Source: an uncultured Woeseiaceae bacterium
Lineage (GTDB): Bacteria; Pseudomonadota; Gammaproteobacteria; Steroidobacterales; Woeseiaceae
NCBI GenBank assembly: GCA_905182415.1
Contig: CAJJBK010000024.1
Coordinates: 1-40,934, forward strand
Reading direction: 5' to 3'
Length of the DNA stretch: 40,934 bases
In this document: piece by piece, positions 1-19,289 of the stretch
Position numbering within the stretch: position 1 is the stretch's first letter
Layout: every line of letters starts with the position of its first letter
Made by a program: the position numbers and the translations under genes
Notes under the pieces: model-generated
What the model was told of the DNA's origin: nothing
The model's input: the letters and a program-made list of their open reading frames with translations, nothing else
Database searches by the model: none

Positions 1-24
1 TAATCCTTTGGAGTGCTATTTACA

Positions 25-1428
25 ATGATTCTTGGTGAATGGGAATATATTTCTTTGTTGCCACTGGTAATTACATTATTGCTGGCCTTTGTAATGCGGT
101 CTGCACTTATCGCAATGTTGGTAGGGACATTTATAGGCACTTTATTGATCGGATTGACCCCGGGGGTGGGGCTTAACCAAATCTTTCAAGCATCTTTGGG
201 GAATGATGATTTTATATGGATTTGTGAAATTATCATTCTAATAGGAATTTTATTTGAGTTATTCAAAAGTTCTGGAGCACTTAATTTGCTTGCTGAGCGT
301 GTAATGAAACGGCAGAAAAAAAGACGCAATGTCGAATTATCAGCTTGGGCAATGGGTTTTATGATTGTTGATGACTATTTTAGCCCATTATTGACCGGGG
401 CAATTATCAGACCGATTTCTGATCGAGTGTCGATACCAAGAGAAAAATTAGCTTTTATACTCGATGCTACTACCGCTTCAGTATGCATACTTTTCCCTTT
501 TACCGCTTGGGGCGCTTATGTGTCTAGTCTAATAGCAGCTCAGGGTGGGCCGGTAGACTCTGTAGAGCAGGCATTATCAATTTATATTTTAGCTATTCCT
601 TATAATATTTACCCAATATTATTAATTATTTTTACTTTATTTATTTGCGCTGGGCTAATTTCAGATTTTGGCCCTATGAAAACAGCTGAGGAGCGCGTTA
701 AGAATACAGGAGCTTTAATTCGCCCGGGATCTGTACCGATGGTATCTGAGGATGATCATATAGACGTAAATGCAAGAATTGGGAGGCAGCCATCTTTAGT
801 TTTTGAATTATTAATGCCAATTATATTAATTATTGGTGTAGGTGTGATTTCAATAGTGGTTTTAGGAAGTGTCAAAATTGTTGAGGCGTTTTTACTAGCC
901 GTAACTTATTTAATAATCGTTGCTACTTATAAAAAACGATTTAAAAATGCTGTTGAGATCGGAGAGTTGATTGTTTCTGGGATGAAAAGTGTTTCTGGAG
1001 CTCTCTTGATTATCGCTTTAGCTTATTCATTGAATACTGTTACTTCGGAGTTAGGCGCCGCCGATTTAATTATTGATTTATTCGCAGAAGACCTAACTAG
1101 CTCAACTTTATTGATTATGACGTTTCTAGTTACAGCTATTATTTCTTTCTCCACAGGAACTTCCTGGGGTGCTTATGCGATGACTATTCCAGTGGTATTG
1201 CCTTTGGCTTATGAGTTAACCGGTGGTCAAATTACACCGTTGATATATCAGACCGTTGCAGCGATAGCAGGCGGGGGTATTTTCGGTGATAATGCCTCAC
1301 CTGTCTCGGATACAACGGTGCTCTCTTCGGTAGGTGCGGGCAGTGATCATATTGATCACGTAATAACACAACTTCCATATGCTCTGTTAATAGGCGCTAT
1401 TTCAATAGTTTTTTATGCGTTAATTTAG
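25..1428 (+). CDS. NhaC-family Na+/H+ antiporter-like transporter
   Basis: This is a polytopic inner-membrane protein of 467 residues with about a dozen hydrophobic segments. Family features visible are the DDYFSPLLTGAI segment around residue 116, an SFSTGTSWGAY motif in the C-terminal half and the GGGIFGDNASPVSDTT motif at about 416-430. All are typical of the NhaC/IT-superfamily Na+/H+ antiporters, which also include malate-lactate or amino-acid exchangers. I chose ATG at 25 because a GGAG sequence at 10-13 lies about 11 bases upstream; a GTG at 13 is also in frame but overlaps that ribosome site. The gene is followed by 173 bases before the next plus-strand gene, so it may be a separate unit. 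Its substrate could be Na+ or an organic acid released by the downstream sugar-oxidising enzymes; the latter is inference only. Confidence 0.88.
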   Translation: MILGEWEYISLLPLVITLLLAFVMRSALIAMLVGTFIGTLLIGLTPGVGLNQIFQASLGNDDFIWICEIIILIGILFELFKSSGALNLLAERVMKRQKKRRNVELSAWAMGFMIVDDYFSPLLTGAIIRPISDRVSIPREKLAFILDATTASVCILFPFTAWGAYVSSLIAAQGGPVDSVEQALSIYILAIPYNIYPILLIIFTLFICAGLISDFGPMKTAEERVKNTGALIRPGSVPMVSEDDHIDVNARIGRQPSLVFELLMPIILIIGVGVISIVVLGSVKIVEAFLLAVTYLIIVATYKKRFKNAVEIGELIVSGMKSVSGALLIIALAYSLNTVTSELGAADLIIDLFAEDLTSSTLLIMTFLVTAIISFSTGTSWGAYAMTIPVVLPLAYELTGGQITPLIYQTVAAIAGGGIFGDNASPVSDTTVLSSVGAGSDHIDHVITQLPYALLIGAISIVFYALI

Positions 1429-1469
1429 TTTCTTATTTTGCTAGAGATCGACCTCTGTGCTAAAAAATT

Positions 1470-1492
1470 ATCTGATACAAGAGTCATCAGAT
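1470..1492. promoter_or_regulatory. Inverted repeat ATCTGAT-N9-ATCAGAT
   Basis: A perfect 7-base inverted repeat with a 9-base spacer lies 41 bases after the antiporter stop and 110 bases before the next start. It is followed by AT-rich sequence rather than a clean T run. It could be a weak terminator hairpin or an operator for the 1602-5341 gene group. The repeat itself is certain; the function is not. Confidence 0.35.
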
Positions 1493-1601
1493 TATTAATA
1501 TCGTTTTAGGTGGTGTATCTTAATTATTGGCGAACTAAAAAAATATAGTTTATATATCTAGGATCAAAGAAATAACCCTTAAGGGCGATGATGAGGAACA
1601 T

Positions 1602-1991
1602 ATGGAGAGAAAAAATTTATTTTTTATGATTTTAATGGGCGTGCTCTGGTTCCATTCGAGCAAAGCACATCATTCGGTATTTGCTGAATACGATATTAAC
1701 GGATCAATCACGATCGAAGGTGTTGTCACAGAGGTGTGGTTTAAGAATCCGCACGTGAGATTTTTTGTCGAAGTTACAAGCAAAAATGGTCAAAAAGTTA
1801 CGTGGAATACCCATGGCCATAACCCCTCGATGTTAAGAAGGGCGGGCTGGGTAAGAGATACTTTAAAAGTGGGAGAGAAAATAATTATGAGTGGAGATCC
1901 AACTTATGATGGTTCACCAAAAATGTTTATTCGTAAAATAACGCTAAGTGATGGGAGTATCTTGCAAAATAAAGTAGGGGGCGTTAATTGA
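1602..1991 (+). CDS. DUF6152-type exported protein
   Basis: A small exported protein of 129 residues. A signal peptide is visible (Lys/Arg followed by a hydrophobic core, likely cleavage after SSKA at residue 22), giving a mature protein beginning HHSVFAEYD. The HHS-x-FAEYD start, the FKNPHVR segment and the late GDP-x-YDGSPKMF segment are typical of the DUF6152 family, a beta-rich domain of unknown function common in marine and soil proteobacteria. A GAGGA ribosome site at 1593-1597 supports the start. The stop overlaps the start of the next gene (TGATG), and these two families are commonly found together, so the two products probably work as an exported pair. No enzymatic motif is visible. 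Confidence 0.8.
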   Translation: MERKNLFFMILMGVLWFHSSKAHHSVFAEYDINGSITIEGVVTEVWFKNPHVRFFVEVTSKNGQKVTWNTHGHNPSMLRRAGWVRDTLKVGEKIIMSGDPTYDGSPKMFIRKITLSDGSILQNKVGGVN

Positions 1992-3070
1992 TGAACGTAA
2001 TATCACTACTTTTTTATAGGATACTCTTATTGGTAGGGTTAGTTTGTGCTCTTAACCAATCATATGCGGTAAATCAAGATTTTATTGGTGAGTGGAATAT
2101 AGAGATAAATCAAGTCACTGGCGGGAAGCGCATTCAAAACGGGTCGCTCTCGATCGATTATAAAAATAATGAATACATAGCTCATGTTCAGGGTGGACCG
2201 ATCAGGATAATAATCAATGGTCAAGATATTGAAATGGCGATTGATGATTGGACTGGCGCAAGTATGCCATTTGAAAGGTATTACAAAGGAACCTTTAATG
2301 ATGGAATATTAGAAGGTAAGTTTGGTCCTGAAACACCGATAACCAATAAACAAAAGGAATTATGTGAAAAAATCCCTTTGGGATGCCCTCATCCTGAAGG
2401 CACATGGAAAGCTGAGCGTCATAATATCCTGCCATCACATTCTAATACATCTGAGGCAATTGATTTGACGGGACGATGGAGTCTTGCCGGAAGAGGGATG
2501 AGACGCTGGACGATGGACATGACAGAAGTTGCAAAAAAATGGAATGAAGATTTTGATGTCGAGCTCGATTTACCAAGACAACGATGTGTTTCGTCTGGTT
2601 TAGTGAATAATTTTGGTAGTGCACCAGAGATATTTCAAGATGAAAATAAAATTACAATGATATTCAGCTCCGAGGTACGGAGAATTTATCTTGATGATAG
2701 AGTACCGCCGGAATTTTCCGATTGGTATCCGCTGGGATTTTCTTCAGGTCATTGGGAAGACGGTGCTTTAATAGTCGAAACATCTAATTTAATGCCATCT
2801 GTGCGTGGATTTATGGGAAGCCCTGTTTCTGGTGACGCCAGAATTACAGAGCGATATGAGTTAGATGAGAAAGGCATGTTACACGCCCACATGACCCTGC
2901 ATGATCCTCAAAATTATCAAAAACCACCAGTATCTTCGGCCATTTGGAAAAGAGTTAAAGATACTACGGTGGTTTTTCCATTATTATGTGATCCGGATTC
3001 GTTCTATCGTCAATTGCATGACGAAGGTAACTTTGAGAAATATATAGAGCGTGCACATCGCAGATATTGA
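1991..3070 (+). CDS. Exported protein of unknown function, partner of DUF6152
   Basis: An exported protein of 359 residues with a hydrophobic N-terminal signal ending near QSYA. The first half is a beta-rich segment with GEWNIEI and a repeated G-x-W pattern (GTWKAER, later TGRWSLAG). The second half carries RRIYLDDRVPPEF, followed by GHWEDGALIVET and a TERYELDEKG segment. These match a widespread uncharacterised domain that often accompanies DUF6152 in genomes with many dehydrogenases. ATG at 1991 overlaps the previous stop; a TTG one codon earlier is possible. The paired cysteines near 125-132 could form a disulfide in the periplasm. I do not know its function. Its place ahead of two sugar-oxidation genes suggests a periplasmic role in the same pathway. 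Confidence 0.75.
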   Translation: MNVISLLFYRILLLVGLVCALNQSYAVNQDFIGEWNIEINQVTGGKRIQNGSLSIDYKNNEYIAHVQGGPIRIIINGQDIEMAIDDWTGASMPFERYYKGTFNDGILEGKFGPETPITNKQKELCEKIPLGCPHPEGTWKAERHNILPSHSNTSEAIDLTGRWSLAGRGMRRWTMDMTEVAKKWNEDFDVELDLPRQRCVSSGLVNNFGSAPEIFQDENKITMIFSSEVRRIYLDDRVPPEFSDWYPLGFSSGHWEDGALIVETSNLMPSVRGFMGSPVSGDARITERYELDEKGMLHAHMTLHDPQNYQKPPVSSAIWKRVKDTTVVFPLLCDPDSFYRQLHDEGNFEKYIERAHRRY

Positions 3071-3130
3071 TTATATAAATAATATACTCATGATTTATTG
3101 CTTTTTACATTAGAAAAGGACGGTAACAAA

Positions 3131-4177
3131 ATGAAAGGTCCAGCTATATTTTTAGCTCAATTTGCCAGTGATACTGCTCCATTTAATGATATTGAGAGTA
3201 TCGCTAAATGGGCGTCTGAATTAGGTTTTAAAGGCATTCAAATTCCATCCTGGGACGCTAGGTTATTTGATTTGAAACTTGCTTCTGAGAGCAAAATATA
3301 TTGCGATAATTTATTGGGAATGTTATTGAAGTATAATATGCAAATTACTGAATTATCGACACATTTGCAAGGACAGTTAGTAGCAGTTCATCCTGCATAC
3401 GATCTTCTTTTTGATCCTTTTTCTGCCCCAGAGGTGCACAAGAATCCACAAAAAAGACAGAAATGGGCAGTTGACCAATTATTAATGGCTGCCAAGGCTT
3501 CACGTAATCTTGGTTTAACTGATCATGTCACTTTTTCAGGAGCCTTAGCTTGGCCTTATTTTTATCCTTGGCCGCAACGGACTGAGGGTCTTATCGAAAC
3601 CGCTTTTAAGGAATTAGGTAAACGATGGCTACCTATTTTGAATGCTTTTGATGAAGCGGGAGTTAACCTTTGTTATGAAATTCATCCTGGCGAAGATTTG
3701 CATGATGGTATAACTTTTGAAATGTTTTTGGAGCAAGTTAACAACCATCCTCGTTGTCAAATGCTTTATGACCCGAGTCATTATGTCTTGCAGGGACTAA
3801 ATTATCTTGAACACATTGATATATATCATGAGCGAATTAAAATGTTTCATGTTAAAGATGCAGAATTTAACCCAACTGGTAGGCAAGGCGTTTACGGTGG
3901 TTATCAACCATGGATCGACCGTGCTGGAAGATTTAGATCTTTAGGTGATGGTCAGGTCGATTTTAAAAATATATTCTCTAAATTCGCTCAATATGATTTT
4001 AATGGGTGGGCTGTCTTAGAATGGGAATGTTGCCTTAAGCACCCAGAGGATGGTGCAAAAGAAGGGTCAATTTTTATCAATGATCATATAATTCGAGTGA
4101 CCGATCAAGCATTCGATGATTTTGCCGGCAGCAAGGCTGATTTAACTATAAATAGAACGATATTGGGTATCGAGTGA
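3131..4177 (+). CDS. Sugar phosphate isomerase/epimerase-type TIM barrel
   Basis: A cytoplasmic TIM-barrel enzyme of 348 residues from the xylose-isomerase-like (AP endonuclease 2) family. Candidate divalent-metal ligands sit at the ends of successive strands: E183 and H185 (YEIHPGED), D214 and H217 (YDPSHY), H240 (FHVKDAEF) and E297/E299 (VLEWE). There is no signal peptide. ATG at 3131 is preferred over an upstream TTG at 3098 because of an AAGGA site just upstream and the normal family N-terminus. It lies 21 bases before a Gfo/Idh/MocA dehydrogenase. Such pairs act on inositols, hexoses or 3-keto-glycosides; in characterised glycoside-cleaving systems the dehydrogenase makes a 3-keto sugar and the metal-dependent TIM barrel eliminates or isomerises. 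The substrate here is unknown. Confidence 0.85.
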   Translation: MKGPAIFLAQFASDTAPFNDIESIAKWASELGFKGIQIPSWDARLFDLKLASESKIYCDNLLGMLLKYNMQITELSTHLQGQLVAVHPAYDLLFDPFSAPEVHKNPQKRQKWAVDQLLMAAKASRNLGLTDHVTFSGALAWPYFYPWPQRTEGLIETAFKELGKRWLPILNAFDEAGVNLCYEIHPGEDLHDGITFEMFLEQVNNHPRCQMLYDPSHYVLQGLNYLEHIDIYHERIKMFHVKDAEFNPTGRQGVYGGYQPWIDRAGRFRSLGDGQVDFKNIFSKFAQYDFNGWAVLEWECCLKHPEDGAKEGSIFINDHIIRVTDQAFDDFAGSKADLTINRTILGIE

Positions 4178-4198
4178 GTTTTTAAAGGCGATAGTTAT

Positions 4199-5341
4199 AT
4201 GGAACGAATAAGATTAGGCATGGTTGGCGGAGGCGAAGGGGCTTTTATCGGTGAAGTGCATCGAATGGCCTCGCGTCTTGATGATCGCTATACCCTTTGC
4301 GCTGGAGCTCTATGTTCTGATGCAAAAAAAGCAGCGAGTTCGGCCTTAAGTATTGGAATCTCTCAAGAACGCAGCTACTCGACTTACCAAGAAATGGCGT
4401 CAACAGAATCTGATCTTGTTGCTGGGATAGAAGTGGTTGCAATTGTTACACCAAATCACCTTCATTATCCAATCGCTAAAGAATTCCTGCTTGCTGGTAT
4501 TCATGTGATATGTGATAAACCAATGACCATCGATACTCAAGAAGCCCGCGAACTAATTGATTTAGCCAAAACATCTAACTTGATGCTTGCCGTGACCTAT
4601 AATTACAGCGCTTACCCGATGATTCGTCATGCCAGGATGATGATTCAATCAGGTGAATTGGGTGAATTAAGAGTAGTGCATACTAAATACACCCAAGATT
4701 GGCTGACCGAACCACTTGAAAATACAAATCATAAACAAGCTCATTGGCGGGTAGATCCAAAAAAATCAGGTGTTGGAGGTTGTGTGGGTGATATTGGGAC
4801 GCATGCCTATCATTTGTCTTGTTTCGTTACAAAGCTTAAGGCAATTTCTTTATGTGCAGATTTATCTTCTTTCGTCGATGGGCGAAGGTTAGATGATAAT
4901 GCGCACATTATGATTCGTTACGAAGGAAATACCAAAGGGATGATTTGGTCCAGTCAGGTAGCCCCTGGAAATGGGAATAATTTAGAAATTCAAATATACG
5001 GCGATAAAGGAGGGCTGGTATGGCGTCAAGAGCAGCCCAATGAACTGATATTCACACCTATAAATAAACCCGGTCAAACACTACTAAGAGGAAGTGCCGG
5101 TTTAAGCGAAAATGCGAATGCGTTATCAAGAGTTCCTGTCGGTCATCCAGAGGGGTATATTGAAGGTTTCGCTAATCTTTACCGTGAAATTGCGGATGCC
5201 TTAATGATCTATCGTAGCGGTAAAAAGCCAAGTTCTGGGGATATTTTGTTTCCAACAGGCGAAGACGGCTATGATGGCGTCTCCTTTGTTGAGGCTGCTG
5301 TAAAATCAAATAACAAAGGATCGGTTTGGGTAAGCTTGTAG
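4199..5341 (+). CDS. Gfo/Idh/MocA family NAD(P)-dependent oxidoreductase
   Basis: A 380-residue cytoplasmic dehydrogenase. The N-terminal Rossmann fold begins with GMVGGGEGAFIGEVHR (residues 7-22). The catalytic lysine is in CDKPM (K107), and the dimer/active-site helix holds GDIGTHAYH with D198 and H202. The GEGAFIG-x-VHR form marks a well-populated subfamily that oxidises or reduces sugars and cyclitols at a ring carbon. A purine-rich AAAGGCG sits before the ATG. It is the second gene of a probable two-gene unit with the TIM barrel at 3131. The stop abuts directly the stop of the convergent MFS gene. The likely reaction is interconversion of a ring hydroxyl and keto group on the substrate imported by the MFS carrier; that link is inferred from context. 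Confidence 0.9.
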   Translation: MERIRLGMVGGGEGAFIGEVHRMASRLDDRYTLCAGALCSDAKKAASSALSIGISQERSYSTYQEMASTESDLVAGIEVVAIVTPNHLHYPIAKEFLLAGIHVICDKPMTIDTQEARELIDLAKTSNLMLAVTYNYSAYPMIRHARMMIQSGELGELRVVHTKYTQDWLTEPLENTNHKQAHWRVDPKKSGVGGCVGDIGTHAYHLSCFVTKLKAISLCADLSSFVDGRRLDDNAHIMIRYEGNTKGMIWSSQVAPGNGNNLEIQIYGDKGGLVWRQEQPNELIFTPINKPGQTLLRGSAGLSENANALSRVPVGHPEGYIEGFANLYREIADALMIYRSGKKPSSGDILFPTGEDGYDGVSFVEAAVKSNNKGSVWVSL

Positions 5342-6490
5342 CTAGCGTTTCCTTAAATACAGCCCACCATAAAGAAAGATCAAAGCAAAAGGCAGGATAC
5401 TCATTTTTTGAATAACTTCTGCGCCGACCGAGTTATCTAGAAAGCGACCCATAAGTGGCAATACTAGAGACACAGAAAGCATTCCCAATCCACCAATCAA
5501 TGACATACCAAATGCACCACTTTCGGGAATATTTTCAGAGATAAAAGCAAGGGTGGTTGGCCAAAAAAAAGTGACACCAATCGCAAAAAAAGCGGCAGCA
5601 ATAAATACGAATGACCCTGAAGAATTTGCTAATAATTGCAAGCCCGCAAACGCGAATATCGAGGAGAGGAAGAGCATTCCTGTGGTTTTGATTTTAATGA
5701 CAATTGAACCAGCTAAAGCTCGGCCAATGATCATAATGCCATTGATAAAAGCTAAAACTAAAAGTGCATTCACACCTGTCTCTTTGAGCAATGATTCAAT
5801 ACGCTGCATCGTACCAAGTTCGGTAGTGGCCGAAAGAAGCATGCAAAATGCAATAAACAAAAAAAGCGGTCTAGCTAAGCTCTTGTATGTATCAACTTGA
5901 TTGATGCCTAGAGATACCCTCTCTGTTAAAGGGAAGTTCTGGCCTATTAACAGGTAGCCATAAAACACTAGCGGTATAAAAAGACTGCCAACCATCATCT
6001 GCCAACTAAGACCCATGATATCCATTAGCATTAAGCTTGCAATAGAACCAATAACGATTCCTGCGGGCCACCATAAATGAAATCGATTTAACATTTTGGT
6101 TTTATCAAGAGGGTACATACTGGCAACCAATGGGTTGCAAACGGCTTCAACCATTCCGTTGCCTAAACCCATGACAATGGTAGCTATAAAAAGTGAAGAA
6201 AAATCATAAGCGGTTAATGTTAATGTAATACCAATGGCGTGACAGATAAAAGCCAGCCACATCCCTTTTTTCATACCTATATTATCCACCAGTTGACCGC
6301 CTAGAATTATGGCTAGGGTAAAACCCCAAAATGCAGGCATAAAGGCATAGCCAATTTGCTCTAAGGATAAGCCCATTCCATCTGGCCCAAAGACAGTTTC
6401 TAGTCTGACTCTTATCGCGAATGTCATGGCTGTAAGTAATAACGAAATGCAACTAGCTGCAAACAGTCTGGTTTGATTGTATTGATGCAT
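5342..6490 (-). CDS. MFS transporter, sugar-type
   Basis: A major facilitator superfamily carrier of 382 residues with about twelve hydrophobic segments. The conserved loop between TM2 and TM3 is seen in GGQLVDNIGMKKGMW (around residues 65-78), and a second-half counterpart is weaker. The overall look, including ETVFGPDGMGLSLEQIGYAF near the N-terminus, resembles sugar or sugar-acid carriers of the FucP/NarK-like branch. It is transcribed against the preceding dehydrogenase with no intergenic base, so no independent terminator exists between them. It is divergent from the Tat-exported TIM barrel at 6629, with a 138-base shared promoter region. It probably takes up the product of the periplasmic oxidation system. 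The substrate cannot be read from sequence. Confidence 0.85.
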   Translation of the reverse strand: MHQYNQTRLFAASCISLLLTAMTFAIRVRLETVFGPDGMGLSLEQIGYAFMPAFWGFTLAIILGGQLVDNIGMKKGMWLAFICHAIGITLTLTAYDFSSLFIATIVMGLGNGMVEAVCNPLVASMYPLDKTKMLNRFHLWWPAGIVIGSIASLMLMDIMGLSWQMMVGSLFIPLVFYGYLLIGQNFPLTERVSLGINQVDTYKSLARPLFLFIAFCMLLSATTELGTMQRIESLLKETGVNALLVLAFINGIMIIGRALAGSIVIKIKTTGMLFLSSIFAFAGLQLLANSSGSFVFIAAAFFAIGVTFFWPTTLAFISENIPESGAFGMSLIGGLGMLSVSLVLPLMGRFLDNSVGAEVIQKMSILPFALIFLYGGLYLRKR

Positions 6491-6628
6491 AAAATAATCC
6501 GTTTGTATTAAGTTATTTAATTATGTCTGCTGATACTAAAATTAACAAATATTTGCCAGTATGGATTCCATTAGTATAGAGTCATGAGCAAGTATTAAAA
6601 AATAAAAAATAGTTGTTGCCATTATATT

Positions 6629-7495
6629 ATGACGAATAGAAGAGAAATTTTAGGACTGTCCTTAGGCGCCGCCTTGACTATACCTTTTGTTGAGGTCAAT
6701 GCACTTGATCAAAACACAGACAAAATCTTACCAGGCTATTTAGCTTGTAATATGGAGTCTTGGTGGACTGAATTACCATTTTTAGAGCGCTTTAAAAGAG
6801 CTTCTGAAAATGGTTTTCAGGCTATAGAGTTTTGGAGTCATTCAGATCCATCTAGGGATATGGCTGAAGTTTCAGATTTGTGTAAGTCACTCAATCTAAA
6901 TGTAATTCAATTCACAGGGTGGCAGGGACCAAGTTTAGCATTAATTGAAAATCATAAAGAGTTTGTTGAGGCAATAGAAAAGGCCATCGATATTGCTCAT
7001 CAACTCAACGCTCCAATGTTTACAGTTGTTGGCCATCAATCTATTAATGGTATTGATCAGGAAACAAGCCTTAAAAATATGGTTCTAGCTTTAAATAGTG
7101 TTATTCCAATGCTTGAGACCTCGGGGAAAAAAATAATCTTAGAGCCATTCAATCCAGTTGATCACGAAGGTCATTTTTTGAATGGCTCTGCCGACGCATT
7201 AGCAATTTGTAGATCTATTGCGTCACCTAATATCAAGATTAACTGGGACCTTTATCATATGCAGTTAAGTGAAGGTAATTTAATTGAAAACCTTGAATTA
7301 GGAATGGATCAAGTAGGTTATATTCAGGTTGCTGATGTGCCTGGGCGAAATCAACCTGGAACCGGTGAGATTAATTATAAATTTGTGTTTGATGAGCTAA
7401 AAAGAATGCAGTACAAGGGTTACATTGGGCTAGAGTGTTGGCCAAAAAATAAAGAAAATATCAAAGCTGTTAACGATCTTTTGAAGGTGATTTGA
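6629..7495 (+). CDS. Tat-exported hydroxypyruvate isomerase-like TIM barrel
   Basis: A 288-residue TIM-barrel protein. The N-terminus has a twin-arginine signal (NRREILGLSLGAALTIP) with likely cleavage near VNA at 25, so the folded enzyme should be exported to the periplasm. Hydroxypyruvate-isomerase-like signatures are clear: E172 in ILEPFNP, D207 and H210 in WDLYHMQ, the ADVPGR-N-PGTGEI segment at 235-248, and E269 in GLECWP. Cytoplasmic Hyi enzymes act in glyoxylate metabolism; a Tat-exported copy beside a dehydrogenase pair is more likely an isomerase or eliminating enzyme acting on an oxidised sugar. The 138-base divergent region upstream contains the promoter. The gene heads a plus-strand run that continues through 12229 with small gaps or overlaps. 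Confidence 0.85.
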   Translation: MTNRREILGLSLGAALTIPFVEVNALDQNTDKILPGYLACNMESWWTELPFLERFKRASENGFQAIEFWSHSDPSRDMAEVSDLCKSLNLNVIQFTGWQGPSLALIENHKEFVEAIEKAIDIAHQLNAPMFTVVGHQSINGIDQETSLKNMVLALNSVIPMLETSGKKIILEPFNPVDHEGHFLNGSADALAICRSIASPNIKINWDLYHMQLSEGNLIENLELGMDQVGYIQVADVPGRNQPGTGEINYKFVFDELKRMQYKGYIGLECWPKNKENIKAVNDLLKVI

Positions 7496-7508
7496 GTGGG
7501 GGTGCTTA

Positions 7509-8087
7509 ATTAAAACAGATCAAAAATTTTCTAGAAGAGAAGCGATTAAGTCTGCAGGACTTTTGTTGGGCGTTAGTATTCCTCTCTCACAATTGGATAT
7601 TTTAGCCAGTTCTTTTGCTGCTAGTAAGGACGATTTTGATCCTCAGTTTTTAGGTAGTAAAAATTTCATTCTATTGCAGCAAATCTCAGATTTAGTGATC
7701 CCAAGAACAGATACGCCGGGTGCAATTGATGCTGGAGTCCATATTTTTATTGATCTGATGCTCAATGAATGGGCATCAGAGGAAACGAAAGTAAAGTATC
7801 TTGCTGGATTTAAGGGTATCAATAATATGGCAATAATATCTTTTGATACCAGTTTTGTCGATTGCACAACAACCCAAAAGATTAGCTTGATTGAAAGCTT
7901 GGATGTGGCAAATGCTAAACTTGATAACGACTCACAGATTTTTTTTAGAGACTTAAAATGGTTTATTATCTCAGGTTATTACTCATCAGAAGAGGGTGCA
8001 TCAGTCGAATTAAATTACGATCGGATGCCGGGCAAATATCAAGGATGCTTACCATTTTCTGAGCAAGATAAGGCATGGTCTTCTTGA
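7509..8087 (+). CDS. Gluconate 2-dehydrogenase subunit 3-type small subunit, Tat signal
   Basis: The small subunit of a periplasmic membrane-linked dehydrogenase. This family (also called the gamma or hitchhiker subunit) pairs with a GMC flavoprotein and carries it through the Tat system; the GMC gene follows here. The body shows LLQQISDLVIPRTDTPGAIDAGV, typical of the family. A clear Tat signal, FSRREAIKSAGLLLGV, is encoded upstream of the first in-frame conventional start (TTG at 7563). The frame is open back to 7491 and contains no ATG, GTG or TTG before the twin arginines. The only plausible start is ATT at 7509, about 7-8 bases after a G-rich stretch at 7498-7502. With that start the protein is 192 residues. 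A rare AUU start or a sequence error are the two readings. Confidence 0.72.
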   Translation: MKTDQKFSRREAIKSAGLLLGVSIPLSQLDILASSFAASKDDFDPQFLGSKNFILLQQISDLVIPRTDTPGAIDAGVHIFIDLMLNEWASEETKVKYLAGFKGINNMAIISFDTSFVDCTTTQKISLIESLDVANAKLDNDSQIFFRDLKWFIISGYYSSEEGASVELNYDRMPGKYQGCLPFSEQDKAWSS

Positions 8088-8109
8088 TGCAAATAAATTG
8101 GGTAATATA

Positions 8110-9807
8110 ATGAATAGTGATTTTGATGCAATTGTCGTTGGCTCCGGTATTTCGGGCGGTTGGGCCATCAAAGAATTAACTGAAAGGGGGCTAAAGGTTC
8201 TCTTGATTGAACGAGGCCCTGAAACGATTCATGGCGAAGATTATATTGGTGAAGGCAAAGCACCTTGGGAGCTGCCTTATCATGGGGCAATTCCTGAGGA
8301 TACATTGAGCAAAGAGTATGCCATACAGCAACAATGTTATGCGCTTAATGATGCCACCAAACAATTTTTTGTTAATGATCATCAGCATCCTTACATCACA
8401 AAAAAAGATAAACCATTTTCTTGGATACGAGGGTATCAATTAGGCGGAAGATCATTATTATGGTATCGACAAAGTTACCGCTGGAGTGAAATGGATTTCG
8501 CTGCAAATAAACTAGATGGGTATGGCGTTGATTGGCCAATACGTTATCGTGATATTGCTCCATGGTATGATCACGTTGAAACATTTGCCGGCATTAGCGG
8601 GTCTAAAGAGGGTTTGGAGCAACTTCCTGATGGCCAATTTCTTCCGCCGATGGAAATGAACTGTGTTGAGCTTGAGGTAAAAAAACAAATTGAGCATCAA
8701 TTCCCAAATAGATCAATGATAATTGGACGCTGCGCTCATCTTACCGAGCCAACAAAAGAACATCTCGAATTAGGAAGAGGTCAATGTCAAAGCAGAGATC
8801 AATGTGAACGAGGTTGTTCGTTTGGCGCTTATTTTAGCACCTTATCAGCAACTCTCCCTGCTGCTAAGAGGACCAATAATTTAACGATCTTGACTGACTC
8901 GATTGTTCAGAGTGTTATCTATGATGATACAAAGAAACGAGCAACTGGTGTAAGAGTAATTGATGCAATAACTAATGAGCGAAAGGAATTAAACGCAAGA
9001 ATAATTTTTTTATGTGCCTCGACGCTTGGCTCAACACAAATAATGCTGAATTCTCGGTCCGCTTCATTTCCAAATGGCATAGCAAATTCAAGTGGCTGCT
9101 TAGGCTTAAATTTGATGGATCACATTTTTGAAAGTGGTGCGAGTGGAGAATATCCAGGATTTAAAGATAAGTATTTTAAAGGTCGTCGACCAAATGGGAT
9201 CTATATACCCAGATATCATAATATAAGTAGCAGAGACGAGAGATTTTTACGTGGCTTTGGTTTTCAGGGCGGAGGAAAACGGCCAAGCTGGAAACGTGCC
9301 AAATCAATGCCGGGGATCGGGGTGAGCTTAAAAGAGCAGCTCAGAAAGCCGGGTTCATGGACATTTAATTTAGGCGGATTTGGAGAAATGTTACCAGATA
9401 AGAGAAACCGTGTATGGCTTGATGAGAATTTAAAAGATAAATGGGGTATACCAGTCTTAAATATTGAATGTACTCTTCGTGATAACGAAAAAAGGATGCT
9501 CAAAGTGATGTCTGAGGATGCTAGAGAGATGCTTGAGGCGTCCGGAATGATTAACGTACAGCCTTATAACAACTCTGCACCCCCTGGGCTTGCTATTCAT
9601 GAAATGGGCACAGCTAGAATGGGGCATGATCCTAAAACTTCTGTATTAAATAAATACAACCAAGCACATGATGTACCAAACTTATTCGTAACAGATGGTT
9701 CTTGTATGGCCTCCAGTGCCTGCCAGAATCCTTCTTTAACTTACATGGCATTAACCGCTAGAGCTTCTGCTAAGGCGGTAGAAATGCTTCAAGAGGGAAA
9801 ACTATGA
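8110..9807 (+). CDS. GMC-family FAD oxidoreductase (sugar/glucoside dehydrogenase large subunit)
   Basis: A flavoprotein of 565 residues. The N-terminal FAD-binding GSGISGGWAIKEL motif lies at 11-23 and a long C-terminal GMC domain holds the active-site H497 (HEMGTARMG) and N540 (CQNPSLTY). A cysteine group, C226, C232 and C236, lies where FAD-dependent glucose and gluconate dehydrogenases bind an iron-sulfur cluster, which would pass electrons to a cytochrome or quinone acceptor. It lacks its own signal peptide, as expected for a partner that rides through Tat with the small subunit encoded 22 bases upstream. ATG at 8110 is preferred over TTG at 8098. Known relatives oxidise glucose, gluconate, sorbitol, or the C3 hydroxyl of glucosides; the last fits the TIM-barrel neighbours. 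Confidence 0.9.
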   Translation: MNSDFDAIVVGSGISGGWAIKELTERGLKVLLIERGPETIHGEDYIGEGKAPWELPYHGAIPEDTLSKEYAIQQQCYALNDATKQFFVNDHQHPYITKKDKPFSWIRGYQLGGRSLLWYRQSYRWSEMDFAANKLDGYGVDWPIRYRDIAPWYDHVETFAGISGSKEGLEQLPDGQFLPPMEMNCVELEVKKQIEHQFPNRSMIIGRCAHLTEPTKEHLELGRGQCQSRDQCERGCSFGAYFSTLSATLPAAKRTNNLTILTDSIVQSVIYDDTKKRATGVRVIDAITNERKELNARIIFLCASTLGSTQIMLNSRSASFPNGIANSSGCLGLNLMDHIFESGASGEYPGFKDKYFKGRRPNGIYIPRYHNISSRDERFLRGFGFQGGGKRPSWKRAKSMPGIGVSLKEQLRKPGSWTFNLGGFGEMLPDKRNRVWLDENLKDKWGIPVLNIECTLRDNEKRMLKVMSEDAREMLEASGMINVQPYNNSAPPGLAIHEMGTARMGHDPKTSVLNKYNQAHDVPNLFVTDGSCMASSACQNPSLTYMALTARASAKAVEMLQEGKL

Positions 9808-10670
9808 GTATGAATAATATTTATCCTATGCGGCGCAGGGACTTTATGAAAAACTCAATGATAATGTTGCCAGCAGTATCTTATCTTCATGCCGGTAAAT
9901 TGAATGCAGCGAGCTTAAGTGAGCATGGATTAGGTAATTTCGGAATCCAGTTATATACAGTTAGAGACCAAATGAAACTGGATGTTAATAGAACGCTGCA
10001 AAGTATAGCTGAGATTGGATATAAAGAGGTTGAATTTGCTGGATATTTTGGGCGTAGTCCTAAAGATATAAAGAATATTTTAGCCGAAAATTCTCTCACT
10101 TCACCCTCAACTCATATAGAAATTCAACTAATACGTGACTATGCGGAACAAGTTATTGATTCAGCCTTAGAAGTCGGGCACAAATATATCGTAATGGCCT
10201 GGTTGGATCCAAGTGAGCGAGTGACTTTAGATCAATATCGTGCCCATGCTGACTTGTTCAATGTATTTGGAGAAAAATGCAAGGCAGCCGGTTTAAAATT
10301 TGCTTTTCATAACCATGATTTTGATTTTCAAGAACTCGAAGATGTGATTCCTATGGATCTACTTTTAGAGAGGACAGATTCGGACGCTGTTGCTTTTGAG
10401 CTTGATATGTATTGGATTACAAAAGCCAAGGCAGATCCAATTCGTTATATTAATAACCATCCTGGTCGCTTCCCTTTGTGGCACATAAAAGACATGGCCC
10501 CTTCCACAAAAATGAGTGATGTTGGAGCAGGCATAATAGATTTTTCAGCTATATTTGCTCATAATAAGAAAGCAGGTCTTGAGCACTTTTTTGCAGAACG
10601 TGATGACCCACCTAATTCTTTGGTTACTGCTTCAAATTGCTTTAATGCAATGTTAAAGTTCGAGTATTGA
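9804..10670 (+). CDS. Tat-exported sugar phosphate isomerase/epimerase-type TIM barrel
   Basis: A 288-residue TIM barrel whose start overlaps the GMC stop (ATGA), implying translational coupling. The N-terminus contains a near-consensus twin-arginine motif (RRRDFMK, residues 10-16) followed by a hydrophobic stretch and an Ala-rich cleavage region near 36. Metal-site candidates are H169/H171 (FAFHNHDFDF), D201 (FELDMYW), H227 (WHIKDM) and E265 (FAERDDP). The GIQLYTVRD start of the barrel is characteristic of a subfamily commonly clustered with GMC and Gfo/Idh/MocA dehydrogenases. A periplasmic metal-dependent barrel coupled to the dehydrogenase would act directly on the oxidised product, for example by beta-elimination from a 3-keto glycoside; this activity is inferred. 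Confidence 0.87.
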   Translation: MSMNNIYPMRRRDFMKNSMIMLPAVSYLHAGKLNAASLSEHGLGNFGIQLYTVRDQMKLDVNRTLQSIAEIGYKEVEFAGYFGRSPKDIKNILAENSLTSPSTHIEIQLIRDYAEQVIDSALEVGHKYIVMAWLDPSERVTLDQYRAHADLFNVFGEKCKAAGLKFAFHNHDFDFQELEDVIPMDLLLERTDSDAVAFELDMYWITKAKADPIRYINNHPGRFPLWHIKDMAPSTKMSDVGAGIIDFSAIFAHNKKAGLEHFFAERDDPPNSLVTASNCFNAMLKFEY

Positions 10671-10699
10671 TTAAATAAGAAGAATTAAAGGGATTGACT

Positions 10700-12229
10700 A
10701 TGCAAAAACCCGATATTTTGATTGTCGGTGCTGGCATCAATGGTCTGGTAGCAGCTAATTACCTGCAAAAAAATGGATGTAATGTAACGATGATGGATCG
10801 TTCTCGTCGCGTGGGTGGGGCTTGTGTTTCAGAGGACATGAATTACGGTAATATCTCACAATCTTATGCATTAGGCGCATCTGTTTTGGGGTTAATGCAA
10901 GACTTTGTTTTTGAGGAAACGGGTTTAGCTCATAAGCTTGAAACTTTTGTCCCATCGCATCCTAAATTAATTCATTTTCCCAATGATCCTATTGTGACGA
11001 GAATTCACAGAGATCCAAAAGATCTGGATATAGAATTAGCAAAGAAATGGGGTGAAAAAGGAGATGTAGAGGGATTTAGGCACGACGAAGGAAGGATAAT
11101 TAAATTTCTTCAACGAGGTTATCGTGAAGCTTGCCCACCAACATTAGAAGCAGCTAGAAGTGAGTTAGGTGAAGTATTAACAGACTTATGGATCAAAGGA
11201 GATGCTAAGACTTTGTTGGATCATTATTTCACTAGTGAACGATCCAAGATGTATATGGCGATGACCGTATCTGAGAGTGGTCCTGTATCACTGGAAGATC
11301 CTTATTCTGCATTCACACTCCCGGTAATGGACTCAGGCTCTATTTTTGATGGTTACTACGGGCACGTAAAAGGAGGTATATGGAAAGTTACGGAGGCCTT
11401 AAGTCATATTAATCACGAGCTAGGAGTAAAGACGCATCTTTCAAGTCAGGTTATCGAAGTAGACTCAAAAAAAGGAAGGGTGTTATTTACGAGAGACGGT
11501 AAAGAAAATCATGTAAATTTTGATTATCTTATCATGGGAACAGACCCCCTGACTGCCCACAAATTAGTCGGCAATGAAGCTGATATAAAAAGCGCTAAGG
11601 AGAAAAAATATCTTGGTAGTAGCGGAAAGTTGAATATGATGTTTAAAAATCCCATTCAATGGAAAGATGCCACAAATCTATCGGATACAGATGCAGCATT
11701 TAGATTTATATTTGGTGTTGAGACTTTAGAAGAATTTGAAAATGCCACGCTTAAAGTAACCGATCCTAACTTTCATTATGTGCCTGGCTATATGCAAATT
11801 TATTGTGAAGGTGGCGCACAACGACAAATGCAAAATCATGAAACATATGATCGTCTAGCTGTATTTTTTAAGAATTTTGCATTAAGTGAAAAGGGTGATG
11901 AGTTGCCTCATATTGAAGAAGAGGCTAAGCAAAAAGTATTAGAATATGTGAATAATCCAGAAGATTGCATTTGGACTAGATTATTAACTCCAAGAGACTT
12001 ACAGAGTTTATTTTACTTTCCCGGGGGTAATCTTGATCACACTATGCTTACGGGTGGTCAAACTTACTTCGATCGAAATTTTTCGAGTGATCCAGAAAAT
12101 TATTTTTATCGTTTTGGTGACAAAGAGAATGTTTATCTTTGTGGGGCTGGAACCTATCCTTGTGGTTCCGTTGCCGGAACTCCAGGTTATATGTGCAGTC
12201 AACAATTATTAAAAGTGATAGACAAATAA
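10700..12229 (+). CDS. PYROXD2/phytoene-desaturase-like FAD oxidoreductase
   Basis: A 509-residue flavoprotein with an N-terminal dinucleotide-binding motif (ILIVGAGINGLVAANYL, residues 6-22), an early VGGACVSED segment and a C-terminal FAD-contact region (LCGAGTYPCGSVAGTPGY). It belongs to the phytoene-desaturase/PYROXD2-like branch of amine-oxidase-type flavoproteins. No signal peptide is visible. An AAAGGGA site at 10687-10693 supports ATG at 10700 rather than TTG at 10694. It follows the Tat TIM barrel by 29 bases and ends the plus-strand run. There are no carotenoid genes nearby, so a carotenoid role is unlikely. It may desaturate or oxidise a product of the sugar or aglycone pathway; the function is unknown. 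Confidence 0.8.
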   Translation: MQKPDILIVGAGINGLVAANYLQKNGCNVTMMDRSRRVGGACVSEDMNYGNISQSYALGASVLGLMQDFVFEETGLAHKLETFVPSHPKLIHFPNDPIVTRIHRDPKDLDIELAKKWGEKGDVEGFRHDEGRIIKFLQRGYREACPPTLEAARSELGEVLTDLWIKGDAKTLLDHYFTSERSKMYMAMTVSESGPVSLEDPYSAFTLPVMDSGSIFDGYYGHVKGGIWKVTEALSHINHELGVKTHLSSQVIEVDSKKGRVLFTRDGKENHVNFDYLIMGTDPLTAHKLVGNEADIKSAKEKKYLGSSGKLNMMFKNPIQWKDATNLSDTDAAFRFIFGVETLEEFENATLKVTDPNFHYVPGYMQIYCEGGAQRQMQNHETYDRLAVFFKNFALSEKGDELPHIEEEAKQKVLEYVNNPEDCIWTRLLTPRDLQSLFYFPGGNLDHTMLTGGQTYFDRNFSSDPENYFYRFGDKENVYLCGAGTYPCGSVAGTPGYMCSQQLLKVIDK

Positions 12230-12232
12230 ATA

Positions 12233-12679
12233 CTAGTGATCGTTAGGAATTTTTGCGATGCATTCTATCTCAAAACTTGCATTTAGAGCCAAGCCATCCG
12301 CACCAAAAGCGCTACGCGCAGGATATGGCTTATTAAAATATTGGATGTATACAGAATTAAATTGACTCCATTTTTCAATATCATCAATCATTACTAAGCA
12401 CTTAAATACATTATCCAAGCTTAAGTTAAGTTTATTTAATGTGATTTGTATATTTTTTAATGCTTGATGTGCTTCAGGCACAATCCCGCCGGATACTATT
12501 GAGCCAGATTCATCCTCACCGACAACTCCAGAGAGATAAACGATATCACCAACTGTGACGGCATCTGAAAAAGGATAGTTATTTTTTTTCGTTGATTCAG
12601 AAACAAAGTAACTAACTTCATCACTATAGCTAGAGATAGATATGAATAAGCCTAAAGTAATTAATATAATTTTTTTCAT
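12233..12679 (-). CDS. Periplasmic RidA/YjgF-family protein
   Basis: A protein of 148 residues with a clear signal peptide (MKKIILITLGLFISIS, cleavage near residue 19) followed by a complete RidA/YjgF domain. Family features are the DIVYLSGVVGED segment and the conserved arginine of the imine-deaminase pocket in YPARSAFG (R122). The acidic position of the last strand is also retained (SFEIECIA). Cytosolic RidA hydrolyses reactive enamines or imines; exported members are less well understood. It converges on the flavoprotein gene with only three bases between stops. It is unrelated in detail to the second RidA-family protein at 20881, which looks like 2-aminomuconate deaminase. Confidence 0.85.
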   Translation of the reverse strand: MKKIILITLGLFISISSYSDEVSYFVSESTKKNNYPFSDAVTVGDIVYLSGVVGEDESGSIVSGGIVPEAHQALKNIQITLNKLNLSLDNVFKCLVMIDDIEKWSQFNSVYIQYFNKPYPARSAFGADGLALNASFEIECIAKIPNDH

Positions 12680-12811
12680 TTGTATGAGTTCATAATTTTA
12701 TTTATAACTACTGTATAGAAAATATATTTTTATAGAAAGTCATATTATAATTGTACAAATAAAGGGTTTATTAATGAGGTATCCATTCTTTAATGAATAG
12801 TAAAATATATT

Positions 12812-13384
12812 ATGTGCGGTAGATTCACACTCAGAGGCACCAATAGAGTGCAAGATGAATATGGAGTAGAGCTTGACCCTAATTATAATTTAGCTCCTGG
12901 ACAAAAAATTTTTGTTGTCAGTCGAAAAATTGAAATGATGAAATGGTCTTTTAGTCCATCTTGGGCTAGTAAACCAATGAATTTGATTAACGCAAGATCA
13001 GAAACCCTTCACGAAAAACCAAGTTTCAAGGGGTCGAAGCGTTGCGTTATTCCAGCAGATGGGTGGTATGAGTGGCATCGAAAAGACAATAAAAAACAGC
13101 CGTTTTATTTTCATAATGATCATGAGTTATTTCTTTTTGCTGGAATATACAAGGAATATAATGATGAGAATGGTTGTGCTCTTATCACCAAAAAAGCTAA
13201 TGATCACTTAGCAAATGTACATCATAGAATGCCGATATTACTCGAATATAGCCAAGCTCGTGATTGGTTAAATGGCGAAGATGTATTTGACTCTACCTTG
13301 TCGGATAAAATTAAATATCACCCAGTAGGATCATTTGTTAATAAACCAAGTAACAATAGCGAAGCATGTATAAAAAGGTTGTAA
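12812..13384 (+). CDS. SOS response-associated peptidase family (SRAP, YedK/HMCES) protein
   Basis: A 190-residue SRAP-domain protein. The start MCGRFT places the catalytic Cys at position 2, which after Met removal forms a thiazolidine crosslink to abasic sites in single-stranded DNA. The other active-site residues are present: N60 in LINARSET, E87 in ADGWYEW and H138 in HHRMP. The length is slightly short compared with E. coli YedK (about 220). It shields abasic sites during replication. It is monocistronic, facing the DUF2061 gene, and nothing in the context links it to its metabolic neighbours. Confidence 0.93.
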   Translation: MCGRFTLRGTNRVQDEYGVELDPNYNLAPGQKIFVVSRKIEMMKWSFSPSWASKPMNLINARSETLHEKPSFKGSKRCVIPADGWYEWHRKDNKKQPFYFHNDHELFLFAGIYKEYNDENGCALITKKANDHLANVHHRMPILLEYSQARDWLNGEDVFDSTLSDKIKYHPVGSFVNKPSNNSEACIKRL

Positions 13385-13395
13385 CGCTTGTTGGT

Positions 13396-13677
13396 TTAAA
13401 TTGTTACGCTTTCTGTTTTATTGGCCATTTTGCTTGCCCAGAATTTATCAAGTAAAAAATACCAAACCCCATTAATTAGCGGCTCAACAATGGCATCGGT
13501 AATTGCTGCATCAAATGAAGCTCCAGTGAAATACATGACACAGGCAGCCGCAATGAAAAAGTGACCTATGGTGTAAATGACTGTCCTAAGGAGCGTGCCT
13601 TTATTCTTTCGTATATTTTTTAAGAGATTATTTCCCAGCATAGTAATATTGTCTTTAAGAATGATAATAAGACTCAT
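13396..13677 (-). CDS. DUF2061 small membrane protein
   Basis: A protein of 93 residues with a basic N-terminus and two hydrophobic segments (about 32-50 and 60-80). The pattern LLRTVIYTIGHFFIAAA, then DAAITDAIVEPLINGVWYFLLDKFW, fits the DUF2061 family of predicted inner-membrane proteins. An internal ATG at residue 13 (MLGNNLLKN) is an alternative start close to the family's usual length. It converges on the SRAP gene with an 11-base gap. The function of the family is not established. Confidence 0.8.
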   Translation of the reverse strand: MSLIIILKDNITMLGNNLLKNIRKNKGTLLRTVIYTIGHFFIAAACVMYFTGASFDAAITDAIVEPLINGVWYFLLDKFWASKMANKTESVTI

Positions 13678-13810
13678 TCTAAATTATTATTTGTTATATT
13701 TAAATATTTTTTTATTTTTATTTAGGATTAATGAGTAAATTCAAAGATAATTAGATTTGTTATACAAAGCGGTATGATCAAAAATTTTTTACAACAAGAG
13801 GGGAAACAAA

Positions 13811-13939
13811 ATGGCATGTGGTTGTGGAAGAAGTCCAACAGGTAAATGTATTGGTTGGCATGCACTCTCTGAAAAAGAGTATCAGGAAAAACTAAAAAAA
13901 TATAAGGAAAAAGAATTGGCTAAAAAAACGGATGAATAA
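13811..13939 (+). CDS. 42-residue Cys-rich small protein, CDGSH-like pattern
   Basis: A short ORF with a strong ribosome site (AGAGGGGAAA just before the ATG). The N-terminal half, MACGCGRSPTGKCIGWH, contains C3, C5, C13 and H17, a C-x-C-x7-C-x3-H arrangement. This is one residue shorter than the 3Cys-1His ligand pattern of CDGSH iron-sulfur proteins (C-x-C-x8-C-x3-H), and the conserved Ser and Gly also line up. The C-terminal half is a charged Lys/Glu helix. A zinc or iron-sulfur binding microprotein is a reasonable idea, but the family identity is not established. The gene is followed 16 bases later by another microprotein that shares its tail, so the two are probably cotranscribed. Confidence 0.7.
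   Translation: MACGCGRSPTGKCIGWHALSEKEYQEKLKKYKEKELAKKTDE
13886..13937 (+). repeat. Direct repeat copy 1 (coding tail duplication)
   Basis: This copy lies in the 42-residue protein gene. It shares three exact blocks with copy 2 at 14010-14055: GAAAAACTAAAA, the 18-base GAAAAAGAATTGGCTAAA, and AAAACGGATGAAT. Short in-frame insertions separate the blocks, so the repeat is conserved at the protein level. Confidence 0.85.
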
Positions 13940-13955
13940 ATAACAGGAGAAAAAA

Positions 13956-14075
13956 ATGGGCAAGAAATATCTTCAGAAGAGGTTGCGAAAGAAGGAAGAA
14001 AGGCGCCTTGAAAAACTAAAAGAAAAAGAATTGGCTAAAGAGAAAACGGATGAATCTATCAAAACCAACTCCTAA
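13956..14075 (+). CDS. 39-residue highly charged small protein
   Basis: A second short ORF preceded by a good site (ACAGGAGA, 7-8 bases before the ATG). The product is almost wholly Lys/Arg/Glu (for example KRLRKKEERRLEKLKEKE) and should form one basic helix. Its last 20 or so residues repeat the tail of the preceding 42-residue protein (KLK...EKELAK...KTDE). It looks like an N-terminally divergent duplicate. A real translated gene is supported by the ribosome site and the in-frame conservation of the duplicated tail, but the length makes this moderate evidence. A nucleic-acid-binding role is possible given the charge. Confidence 0.5.
   Translation: MGKKYLQKRLRKKEERRLEKLKEKELAKEKTDESIKTNS
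14010..14055 (+). repeat. Direct repeat copy 2 (coding tail duplication)
   Basis: This is the partner of the copy at 13886-13937, located in the 39-residue protein gene. The block order is the same, and the spacing differences are multiples of three overall, keeping both reading frames open. Confidence 0.85.
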
Positions 14076-18238: not shown

Positions 18239-19135
18239 TTAACTATGTTTTTTTAATTGTAATTTTTCACGAACTTCTTTTGGTTTTAATATATTTGAGC
18301 CAAGATTATTAATTATTGATACTGCTCTGTCTACAAGTTGTGCGTTTGTGGCAAGCACTCCTTTTTTTAGGTAAATATTGTCTTCTAGACCAACTCTAAT
18401 ATTCCCACCTGCAATTAATGCTGCCGCTACATATGGCATTTGTTGTTGACCAATTGAAAATGCTGAAAATATCCATTCTTCTGGAATATTATTAACCATA
18501 GCCATTAATGTATTTAGATCATTAGGTGCGCCCCAAGGGATACCCATGCAGAGCTGCAGTAAAACAGGGTGATGAATGAGTTTTTCTGCAACCAATTGTT
18601 TTGCAAACCAGAGATGGCCCGTATCAAAGGCTTCAATTTCGATTCTTACGTCATGATCGGTCGCAATTTTTGCCATACTACGAAGCATTTCAGGTGTATT
18701 CGCCATGACATCATTAGCGAAATTCATAGTACCGCAATCTAAAGTACAAATTTCTGGACGGCACTCTATGACATGTTGCATACGTTCTGTTGCGCCCACC
18801 ATATCGGTATCTGGGGTCAGCGGAAGTGGGGATTCTGATGGTCCAAATACAACATCCCCACCCATTCCGGCAGTAAGATTTATAATTACATCAGTTCCTG
18901 AATCACGGATTCTATCAGTTAGTTCTTTATATAACGCTAGTTCTCTCGCTGGTTCACCTGTCTTTGGGTCTCTAACATGACAATGAACAATTGCAGCTCC
19001 TGCTTTCGCAGCAGTTATTGCACTTTCGGCGATTTCTTTAGGGCTTCTAGGGACCAATGAAGATTTATTATGTGATGCACCTGATCCAGTTACAGCACAG
19101 GTTATAAATACGTCTTTTGATGGATTTAGTGGCAT
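18239..19135 (-). CDS. Beta-keto acid cleavage enzyme (BKACE, DUF849)
   Basis: A 298-residue TIM-barrel enzyme of the BKACE family (prototype Kce, 3-keto-5-aminohexanoate cleavage enzyme). These condense a beta-keto acid with acetyl-CoA to give acetoacetate and a new CoA ester. Zn ligands are visible in VHCHVRDP (H51 and H53) and in VGLEDN (E251), with the start FITCAVTGSGAS typical of the family. Details such as LDCGTMNF and DTGHLWFAKQL are reminiscent of the branch acting on quaternary-amine keto acids such as dehydrocarnitine, but I cannot confirm this. It is divergent from an HpaB-type oxygenase with a 154-base shared promoter region holding a perfect inverted repeat, suggesting joint control. 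Confidence 0.9.
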   Translation of the reverse strand: MPLNPSKDVFITCAVTGSGASHNKSSLVPRSPKEIAESAITAAKAGAAIVHCHVRDPKTGEPARELALYKELTDRIRDSGTDVIINLTAGMGGDVVFGPSESPLPLTPDTDMVGATERMQHVIECRPEICTLDCGTMNFANDVMANTPEMLRSMAKIATDHDVRIEIEAFDTGHLWFAKQLVAEKLIHHPVLLQLCMGIPWGAPNDLNTLMAMVNNIPEEWIFSAFSIGQQQMPYVAAALIAGGNIRVGLEDNIYLKKGVLATNAQLVDRAVSIINNLGSNILKPKEVREKLQLKKHS

Positions 19136-19200
19136 AATTAACCTTATATTTATATTGACATAATCAGCAAGTATTCTATTTTATAATTGTATTAGTAAGC

Positions 19201-19223: not shown

Positions 19224-19289
19224 TCAGTAACGTAAATTCTAGCATATAGAAAGAAACACACTCAGTTAGATAATTTAGGAGATTGCATC

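Follow-up and report, generated by a model that had tools for sequence, protein, structure and literature searches.

The gene cluster and its predicted enzymes

The window analysed here is a stretch of 40,934 nucleotides on contig CAJJBK010000024.1 of an uncultured Woeseiaceae bacterium (assembly GCA_905182415.1), which between positions 3131 and 12229 carries a gene cluster centred on a flavoprotein dehydrogenase of the GMC family that we interpret as a pathway of oxidative glycoside breakdown. The host genome (1.82 Mb in 73 contigs) is 99.4% complete; the closest named relatives are Woeseiaceae, the GMC protein being 98% identical to that of isolate AM-375-N10. An earlier note on this DNA, made by a model from the sequence alone, had named the proteins of the cluster, and these are indeed open reading frames (ORFs) lying where it placed them and belonging to the families it gave (ORF list, Pfam). 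The genes follow one another in the order hydratase, Gfo/Idh/MocA oxidoreductase (Gfo), MFS carrier on the minus strand, a TIM barrel with a twin-arginine (Tat) signal (TIM2), small subunit, GMC dehydrogenase, a further Tat-signal TIM barrel (TIM3) and a further flavoprotein. From the small subunit to this last gene they either overlap by 4 bases or lie 10 to 30 bases apart, the spacing varying with the choice of start.

3131..4177, plus strand: TIM barrel (AP_endonuc_2), predicted 2-hydroxy-3-keto-glucal hydratase of the AtHYD family, without leader, cytoplasmic (similarity to 8ro4_A)
4199..5341, plus strand: Gfo/Idh/MocA oxidoreductase, best read as 3-keto-glucose reductase, cytoplasmic (Pfam; match to 3v5n; adjoins the hydratase)
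5342..6490, minus strand: MFS transporter, proposed importer of a keto-sugar, the substrate being inferred only (MFS_1; recurring place in related loci)
6629..7495, plus strand: TIM2, Tat-signal TIM barrel of hydroxypyruvate isomerase / 2-oxo-tetronate isomerase type (model fold, family scores)
about 7509..8087, plus strand: Tat-signal small subunit of the GMC dehydrogenase, Gluconate_2-dh3 family, with a possible ATT start (PF13618, E 2.5e-27; SRREAIK motif)
8110..9807, plus strand: GMC flavoprotein, proposed catalytic subunit of a glycoside C3-dehydrogenase (similarity to fructose and glucose dehydrogenases; motifs)
9804..10670, plus strand: TIM3, predicted Tat-signal 3-keto-beta-glucoside 1,2-lyase of AL1/BT1/AtOGE type (phmmer, AlphaFold model, active-site residues)
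10694..12229, plus strand: amine-oxidase/CrtI-like flavin adenine dinucleotide (FAD) oxidoreductase, outside the named pathway (PF01593)

The first gene product matches AtHYD of Agrobacterium tumefaciens, a protein that has been crystallised (PDB 8ro4_A), with a phmmer E-value of 2.3e-167. The similarity covers the full length, with 231 of 346 aligned residues identical (67%), and on its sequence the protein is predicted to be a 2-hydroxy-3-keto-glucal hydratase of the AtHYD family. The Gfo protein beside it, which likewise has no leader, finds its nearest solved relative in 3v5n (E 1.7e-134), and it adjoins the hydratase both in relatives and in alphaproteobacterial plasmid records. It is best read as the final reductase, converting 3-keto-glucose to glucose, on account of the same gene types in the A. 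tumefaciens operon (PMC10628242), a comparison made by gene type; the direction of the step would then be that of a reduction. A levoglucosan pathway was considered and rejected: levoglucosan dehydrogenase is the best NCBIfam match of the Gfo protein, but it scores 116.2 of 650 bits.

The properties of TIM3 fit a lyase of the 3-keto-beta-glucoside 1,2-lyase type, as predicted from both sequence and model. It was matched by phmmer to 8tcd (E 2.7e-32), to 8bvk (E 6.1e-23) and also to 8tct, and its AlphaFold model, with a mean predicted local distance difference test (pLDDT) of 89.5, is most similar to AL1 of Alistipes (8tcd, Z 31.6) and BT1 of B. thetaiotaomicron (Z 31.4), the structures of which are both titled 3-keto-beta-glucopyranoside-1,2-lyase; the value for AtOGE (8bvk) is Z 25.4, and the same lyase and eliminase entries rank high in Foldseek. 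For AtOGE, PMC10628242 names His132, Asp163, His189 and Glu233, the catalytic His134, and a shifted metal site of Glu39, His66 and Glu161. TIM3 is identical at all eight AtOGE residues checked (E39, H66, H132, H134, E161, D163, H189 and E233), so that the fold occurs together with the metal site (H132, D163, H189, E233) and the catalytic H134. The eight positions are invariant in 20 chosen aligned rows, and an H-x-H motif with N or H in the middle is kept in all 52 lyase-like matches. A C-glycoside lyase (CGE) was rejected for TIM3, as CGEs carry a glutamate at the position of AtOGE His132 (PMC10628242) whereas TIM3 has the histidine.

These two enzymes also bear on the possibility that the cluster serves an inositol or cyclitol pathway, with the IolE-like and IolG-like scores reflecting inosose dehydration and inositol oxidation. 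NCBIfam matches to myo_inos_iolE and iolG do occur, but they fall far under the cut-offs, the hydratase scoring 60.5 of 290 bits and the Gfo protein 57.3 of 355. As a structure is known for a protein 67% identical to the hydratase, and the folds closest to that of the lyase belong to 3-keto-glucoside lyases, we regard such a pathway as highly improbable and reject it.

The nearest solved structures to the GMC protein are the large subunit of fructose dehydrogenase (E 8e-39) and glucose dehydrogenase (1.2e-31). It possesses a C-x5-C-x3-C motif from residue 230 as well as the motifs of His501 and Asn544 (residues counted from 8098); among the 96 matches with at least 45% identity, the window's own gene included, a C-x4/5-C-x3-C motif occurs in all 96, the His motif in 91 and the Asn motif in 87. 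We take the C-x5-C-x3-C motif to be of the kind used for an iron-sulphur cluster in fructose and glucose dehydrogenases. A GMC protein with a Gluconate_2-dh3 Tat subunit as its neighbour is the arrangement of the LacA/LacC and GlycDH type, and is what is present here. In four of eight small-subunit sequences (the window and loci L006, L007 and L008), the stretch from the preceding stop codon to the twin-arginine motif contains no ATG, GTG or TTG, while the other compared relatives start with ATG (three) or GTG (one); the gene in the window may start with ATT.

TIM2 is best guessed to be a keto-sugar epimerase or isomerase. Its model, of moderate confidence (pLDDT 74.7), is closest to 1k77 and 3ngf (Z 26.5), both of hydroxypyruvate-isomerase type by family score, and then to Art22 (Z 24) and to YcjR (6wn6, Z 23.2), a 3-keto-glucoside 4-epimerase. 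The protein itself lies below the NCBIfam equivalog cut-offs of both named isomerases, with 173.1 of 353.45 bits and 166.3 of 325 bits, and E172, D207 and E269 are invariant in all 17 aligned rows. The protein is found in 8 of 107 genomes of the family and, of 369 genomes sampled from the whole class, in 2, including the window's own.

Conservation of the neighbourhood

The comparison covered 80 loci, the best of those found for 467 relatives of the GMC protein; many of their flanks are short. A relative of the small subunit is present in 76 of these 80 loci, and relatives of the hydratase, the Gfo protein and TIM3 in 37, 36 and 40, respectively. A set of 47 loci outside the Woeseiaceae, each of at least 21 kb (about 10 kb per side) and chosen solely by the GMC relative, holds hydratase, Gfo and TIM3 together in 27 cases, spread over several phyla, while in the remaining 20 they are absent as a set. 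A conserved neighbourhood in relatives, which the earlier note had named as its own check, is thus borne out by these 27 loci as well as by those of the Woeseiaceae. A neighbourhood arising by chance is unlikely given this count, made without a random-locus control.

Within the family, the hydratase was found in 18 of 107 genomes, and in 6 of 9 in the genus. The MFS gene occupies the same place in loci of the genus and of the family. Another Woeseiaceae genus has the order Gfo, MFS, TIM2, small subunit, GMC and TIM3, without the last flavoprotein; there the contig ends within Gfo, and TIM3 is divided between two reading frames. TIM2-type barrels occur in 17 of the 47 outside loci. In the Pedobacter cluster (L042), the small subunit, GMC, Gfo and hydratase are followed by a cytochrome c, a Tat-type Gfo like BT_2158, a DUF1080 protein, a nucleoside-permease-like carrier, and Tat-signal proteins of TIM2 and TIM3 type.

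The co-occurrence is also what speaks to the idea of two co-located pathways that share no transported intermediate, namely a periplasmic oxidative module, the products of which would serve in the form in which they are set free, and a cytoplasmic pair handling keto-sugars of other origin. The hydratase/Gfo pair can indeed occur by itself, beside xylose and ATP-binding cassette (ABC) genes in Azospirillum and with ABC genes in Phyllobacterium, in both cases with no GMC or lyase gene in the stretch examined. Against this stand the joint presence of the modules in 27 of 47 loci across several phyla, and a carrier of MFS type that tracks the full set, being found in 26 of these 27 loci but in only 1 of the 20 others. 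We consider two separate pathways unlikely.

Leaders, compartments and the proposed route

Leaders were called as Tat-like where an RR was followed by a hydrophobic stretch, in loci that had been selected either for their GMC gene or for kinship. The lyase of the window begins with a clear leader, RRRDFMK, and of the 52 TIM3 relatives in these loci 49 have a Tat-like leader; counted without the duplicates of two contigs (L009/L123 and L011/L125), these are 47 of 50. The figure of 49 of 52 holds whether the TIM3 profile is made from rows each bearing an RR leader or leaves the leader out. The three exceptions comprise two doubtful ORF starts and one Sec- or lipoprotein-like start. None of 50 hydratases has such a leader (the N-terminus is present for 48, and the other two are without an N-terminal anchor). 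Five of 48 Gfo relatives, a count that leaves out matches below 38% identity, were flagged by the rule; on inspection we judge these to be artefacts of cut ORFs or of a Rossmann start.

Leaderless lyase relatives do exist. On a plasmid of Rhizobium beringeri (L135), a TIM3-type protein that has nothing ahead of its core lies together with genes for an ABC sugar importer, two Gfo proteins and a hydratase, and no GMC gene occurs within the 12.7 kb seen; the TIM3-type protein of a Phaeobacter plasmid (L137) is likewise leaderless and has ABC genes next to it; and AtOGE has at most about 11 residues ahead of its core. Set against the lyases with leaders, these cases point to two layouts, one that imports and then cleaves and another that cleaves and then imports. 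They also lend some weight to the view that the whole pathway of the window acts on glycosides already imported, the Tat-like leader of the lyase not leading to export. We think this quite improbable, as the leader is clear in the window and recurs in nearly all relatives, the small subunit of the GMC dehydrogenase is also of Tat type, and there is no ABC gene among the ten cluster proteins scanned (Pfam). The window shows, to judge from its predicted leaders, the layout in which cleavage precedes import.

We consider it probable that the cluster encodes non-hydrolytic cleavage of glycosides split between two compartments. Its route is, in the gene types present, the known pathway of oxidation, elimination, hydration and reduction. 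The GMC protein, carried to the periplasm with its Tat small subunit, would oxidise the C3 hydroxyl of a presumed glycoside, and electrons would pass via FAD and probably an iron-sulphur cluster to a cytochrome c encoded elsewhere, the presumptive acceptor. The Tat-exported TIM3 would then free the aglycone by a metal-dependent beta-elimination that leaves 2-hydroxy-3-keto-glucal. From the locations of the enzymes and from the carriers we infer that this keto-glucal is the species taken up, by an inner-membrane carrier that is most likely the MFS protein. In the cytoplasm the hydratase would add water to yield 3-keto-glucose, and the Gfo enzyme would reduce this to glucose, a substrate for the glucokinase that is encoded elsewhere in the genome. 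TIM2 would probably isomerise or epimerise a keto-sugar, so widening the range of substrates. No glycoside hydrolase that might narrow down the substrate is present among the ten proteins scanned. A stronger, vectorial version, in which the reactive periplasmic keto-glucal is itself the transported nutrient and TIM2 a keto-sugar epimerase acting on the same pool, is in our opinion plausible but somewhat less than an even bet.

Much of this had been anticipated in the earlier note. The chemistry that it proposed (C3 oxidation by a GMC enzyme, elimination and subsequent conversion catalysed by metal-dependent TIM barrels, and a Gfo step) matches that of the closest characterised relatives (PMC10628242), and its division between periplasm and cytoplasm with import of the product fits the leaders and carriers. 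It counted the Gfo enzyme among the members of the pathway, and this enzyme is now best taken as the final reductase.

Several observations weigh against a split route as drawn here. A cytochrome c partner encoded in the cluster, as in the LacABC type, was not found: no CXXCH occurs in any ORF of at least 50 amino acids overlapping positions 1–14000 of the window, and PF13442 has no match on its contig, the matches being on other contigs, while, unlike the window, 15 of the 27 outside loci with the full set encode a protein related to the cytochrome c of Pedobacter. Of the carriers in those 27 loci, 23 are nucleoside-permease-like and only 3 resemble the MFS protein of the window, and 18 of the 27 have a DUF1080 protein that could perform the cleavage there. 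TIM3 and AtOGE are identical at only 65 of 230 residues (28%), the nearest solved relative of the Gfo protein, 3v5n, is titled simply ‘Oxidoreductase’ with no function given, and the Tat-like leaders were called by a home-made rule and not by SignalP.

Known systems and neighbouring genes

The earlier note could match the enzyme set to no named system, and in this it was mistaken, as the set corresponds to the GlycDH/AtOGE/AtHYD/Gfo pathway of Agrobacterium. We take GlycDH to be a member of the GMC family. The route in A. tumefaciens comprises oxidation, elimination, hydration and reduction by these four enzymes (Bitter et al. 2023, PMC10628242); the GlycDH flavoenzyme produced in that study was from Rhizobium sp. 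GIN611 and was expressed with its TAT-signal protein, and the evidence for the role of AtHYD was preliminary. The two systems (8BVK and 8RO4 in Agrobacterium) share steps, gene types, a closely related hydratase and the active site of the eliminase. They differ in that the eliminase of the window has a Tat leader and has diverged considerably in sequence from AtOGE, and in that the window has an extra Tat-signal TIM barrel and an MFS carrier gene, the carriers of the Agrobacterium operon being outside this comparison.

The Bacteroidota lyases AL1 and BT1 (8TCD, 8TCR, 8TCT) provide the closest fold to the lyase of the window (Z 31 to 32) at about 30% identity. Their partner dehydrogenases are reportedly Gfo enzymes of the nicotinamide adenine dinucleotide (NAD) type and not GMC proteins. 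The 271-residue chain of 8tcd aligns over residues 30 to 294, which indicates that the structure lacks an N-terminal portion, and AL1 and BT1 may be exported too.

A periplasmic C3 oxidation by a membrane-bound dehydrogenase, followed by periplasmic cleavage, would be shared with LacABC, a lactose 3-dehydrogenase. We take LacB to be a cytochrome c. For Caulobacter, PMC9007349 proposes that lactose is oxidised by LacABC in the periplasm and then cleaved there by a DUF1080 protein, a step for which we propose a TIM-barrel lyase in the window. For Pedobacter the same source reports that a similar dehydrogenase matters but no DUF1080 mutant with a lactose phenotype. The genome of the window has a GMC/DUF1080 cluster of its own at a separate place, contig C45 (L093, 12372–14113). 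This second cluster of 3-keto-glycoside type encodes a DUF1080 protein that begins in a leader-like manner, along with a Tat small subunit, and includes a GMC fragment cut off by the contig end.

The pathway as such is known; the variant described here combines a lyase predicted to be exported, a hydratase and a reductase inside the cell, and a carrier of MFS type, and it recurs across phyla. This split arrangement was not found in the literature searched, which did not extend to the key AtHYD and AL1/BT1 papers, and it cannot be called unpublished. The oxidative, non-hydrolytic cleavage of glycosides is established for Agrobacterium and for gut bacteria, and the same enzyme set is now seen in marine Woeseiaceae, in Bacteroidota and in Alphaproteobacteria, where the enzyme that breaks the bond appears to be exported. 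A genuine split would mean that intact glycosides do not have to enter the cell and that the unusual keto-glucal is taken up as a nutrient, and its transporter would then best be sought among the carrier genes that track the full set. The clusters would add a route of marine glycoside breakdown that searches for glycoside hydrolases would miss.

The flavoprotein at 10694–12229 had been included in the range of the earlier note but left undescribed. It follows the lyase in all seven Woeseiaceae loci L005–L011, and in L113, L114 and L133, from another genus of the family, no relative of it was seen downstream of the lyase. Directly downstream (12233–12679), the window encodes a RidA-family protein with a leader-like hydrophobic stretch at its N-terminus, which to our knowledge is unusual for this family. 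On the other side of the cluster (1602–3070), a gene for a DUF6152 protein overlaps by 4 bases with one for a protein of 360 amino acids that has a leader-like start and no Pfam match; this pair lies upstream of the hydratase in those loci of the genus that reach that far. Further along the window (18239–21300), genes for a beta-keto acid cleavage enzyme, an HpaB-type hydroxylase and a second RidA-family protein are adjacent to one another.

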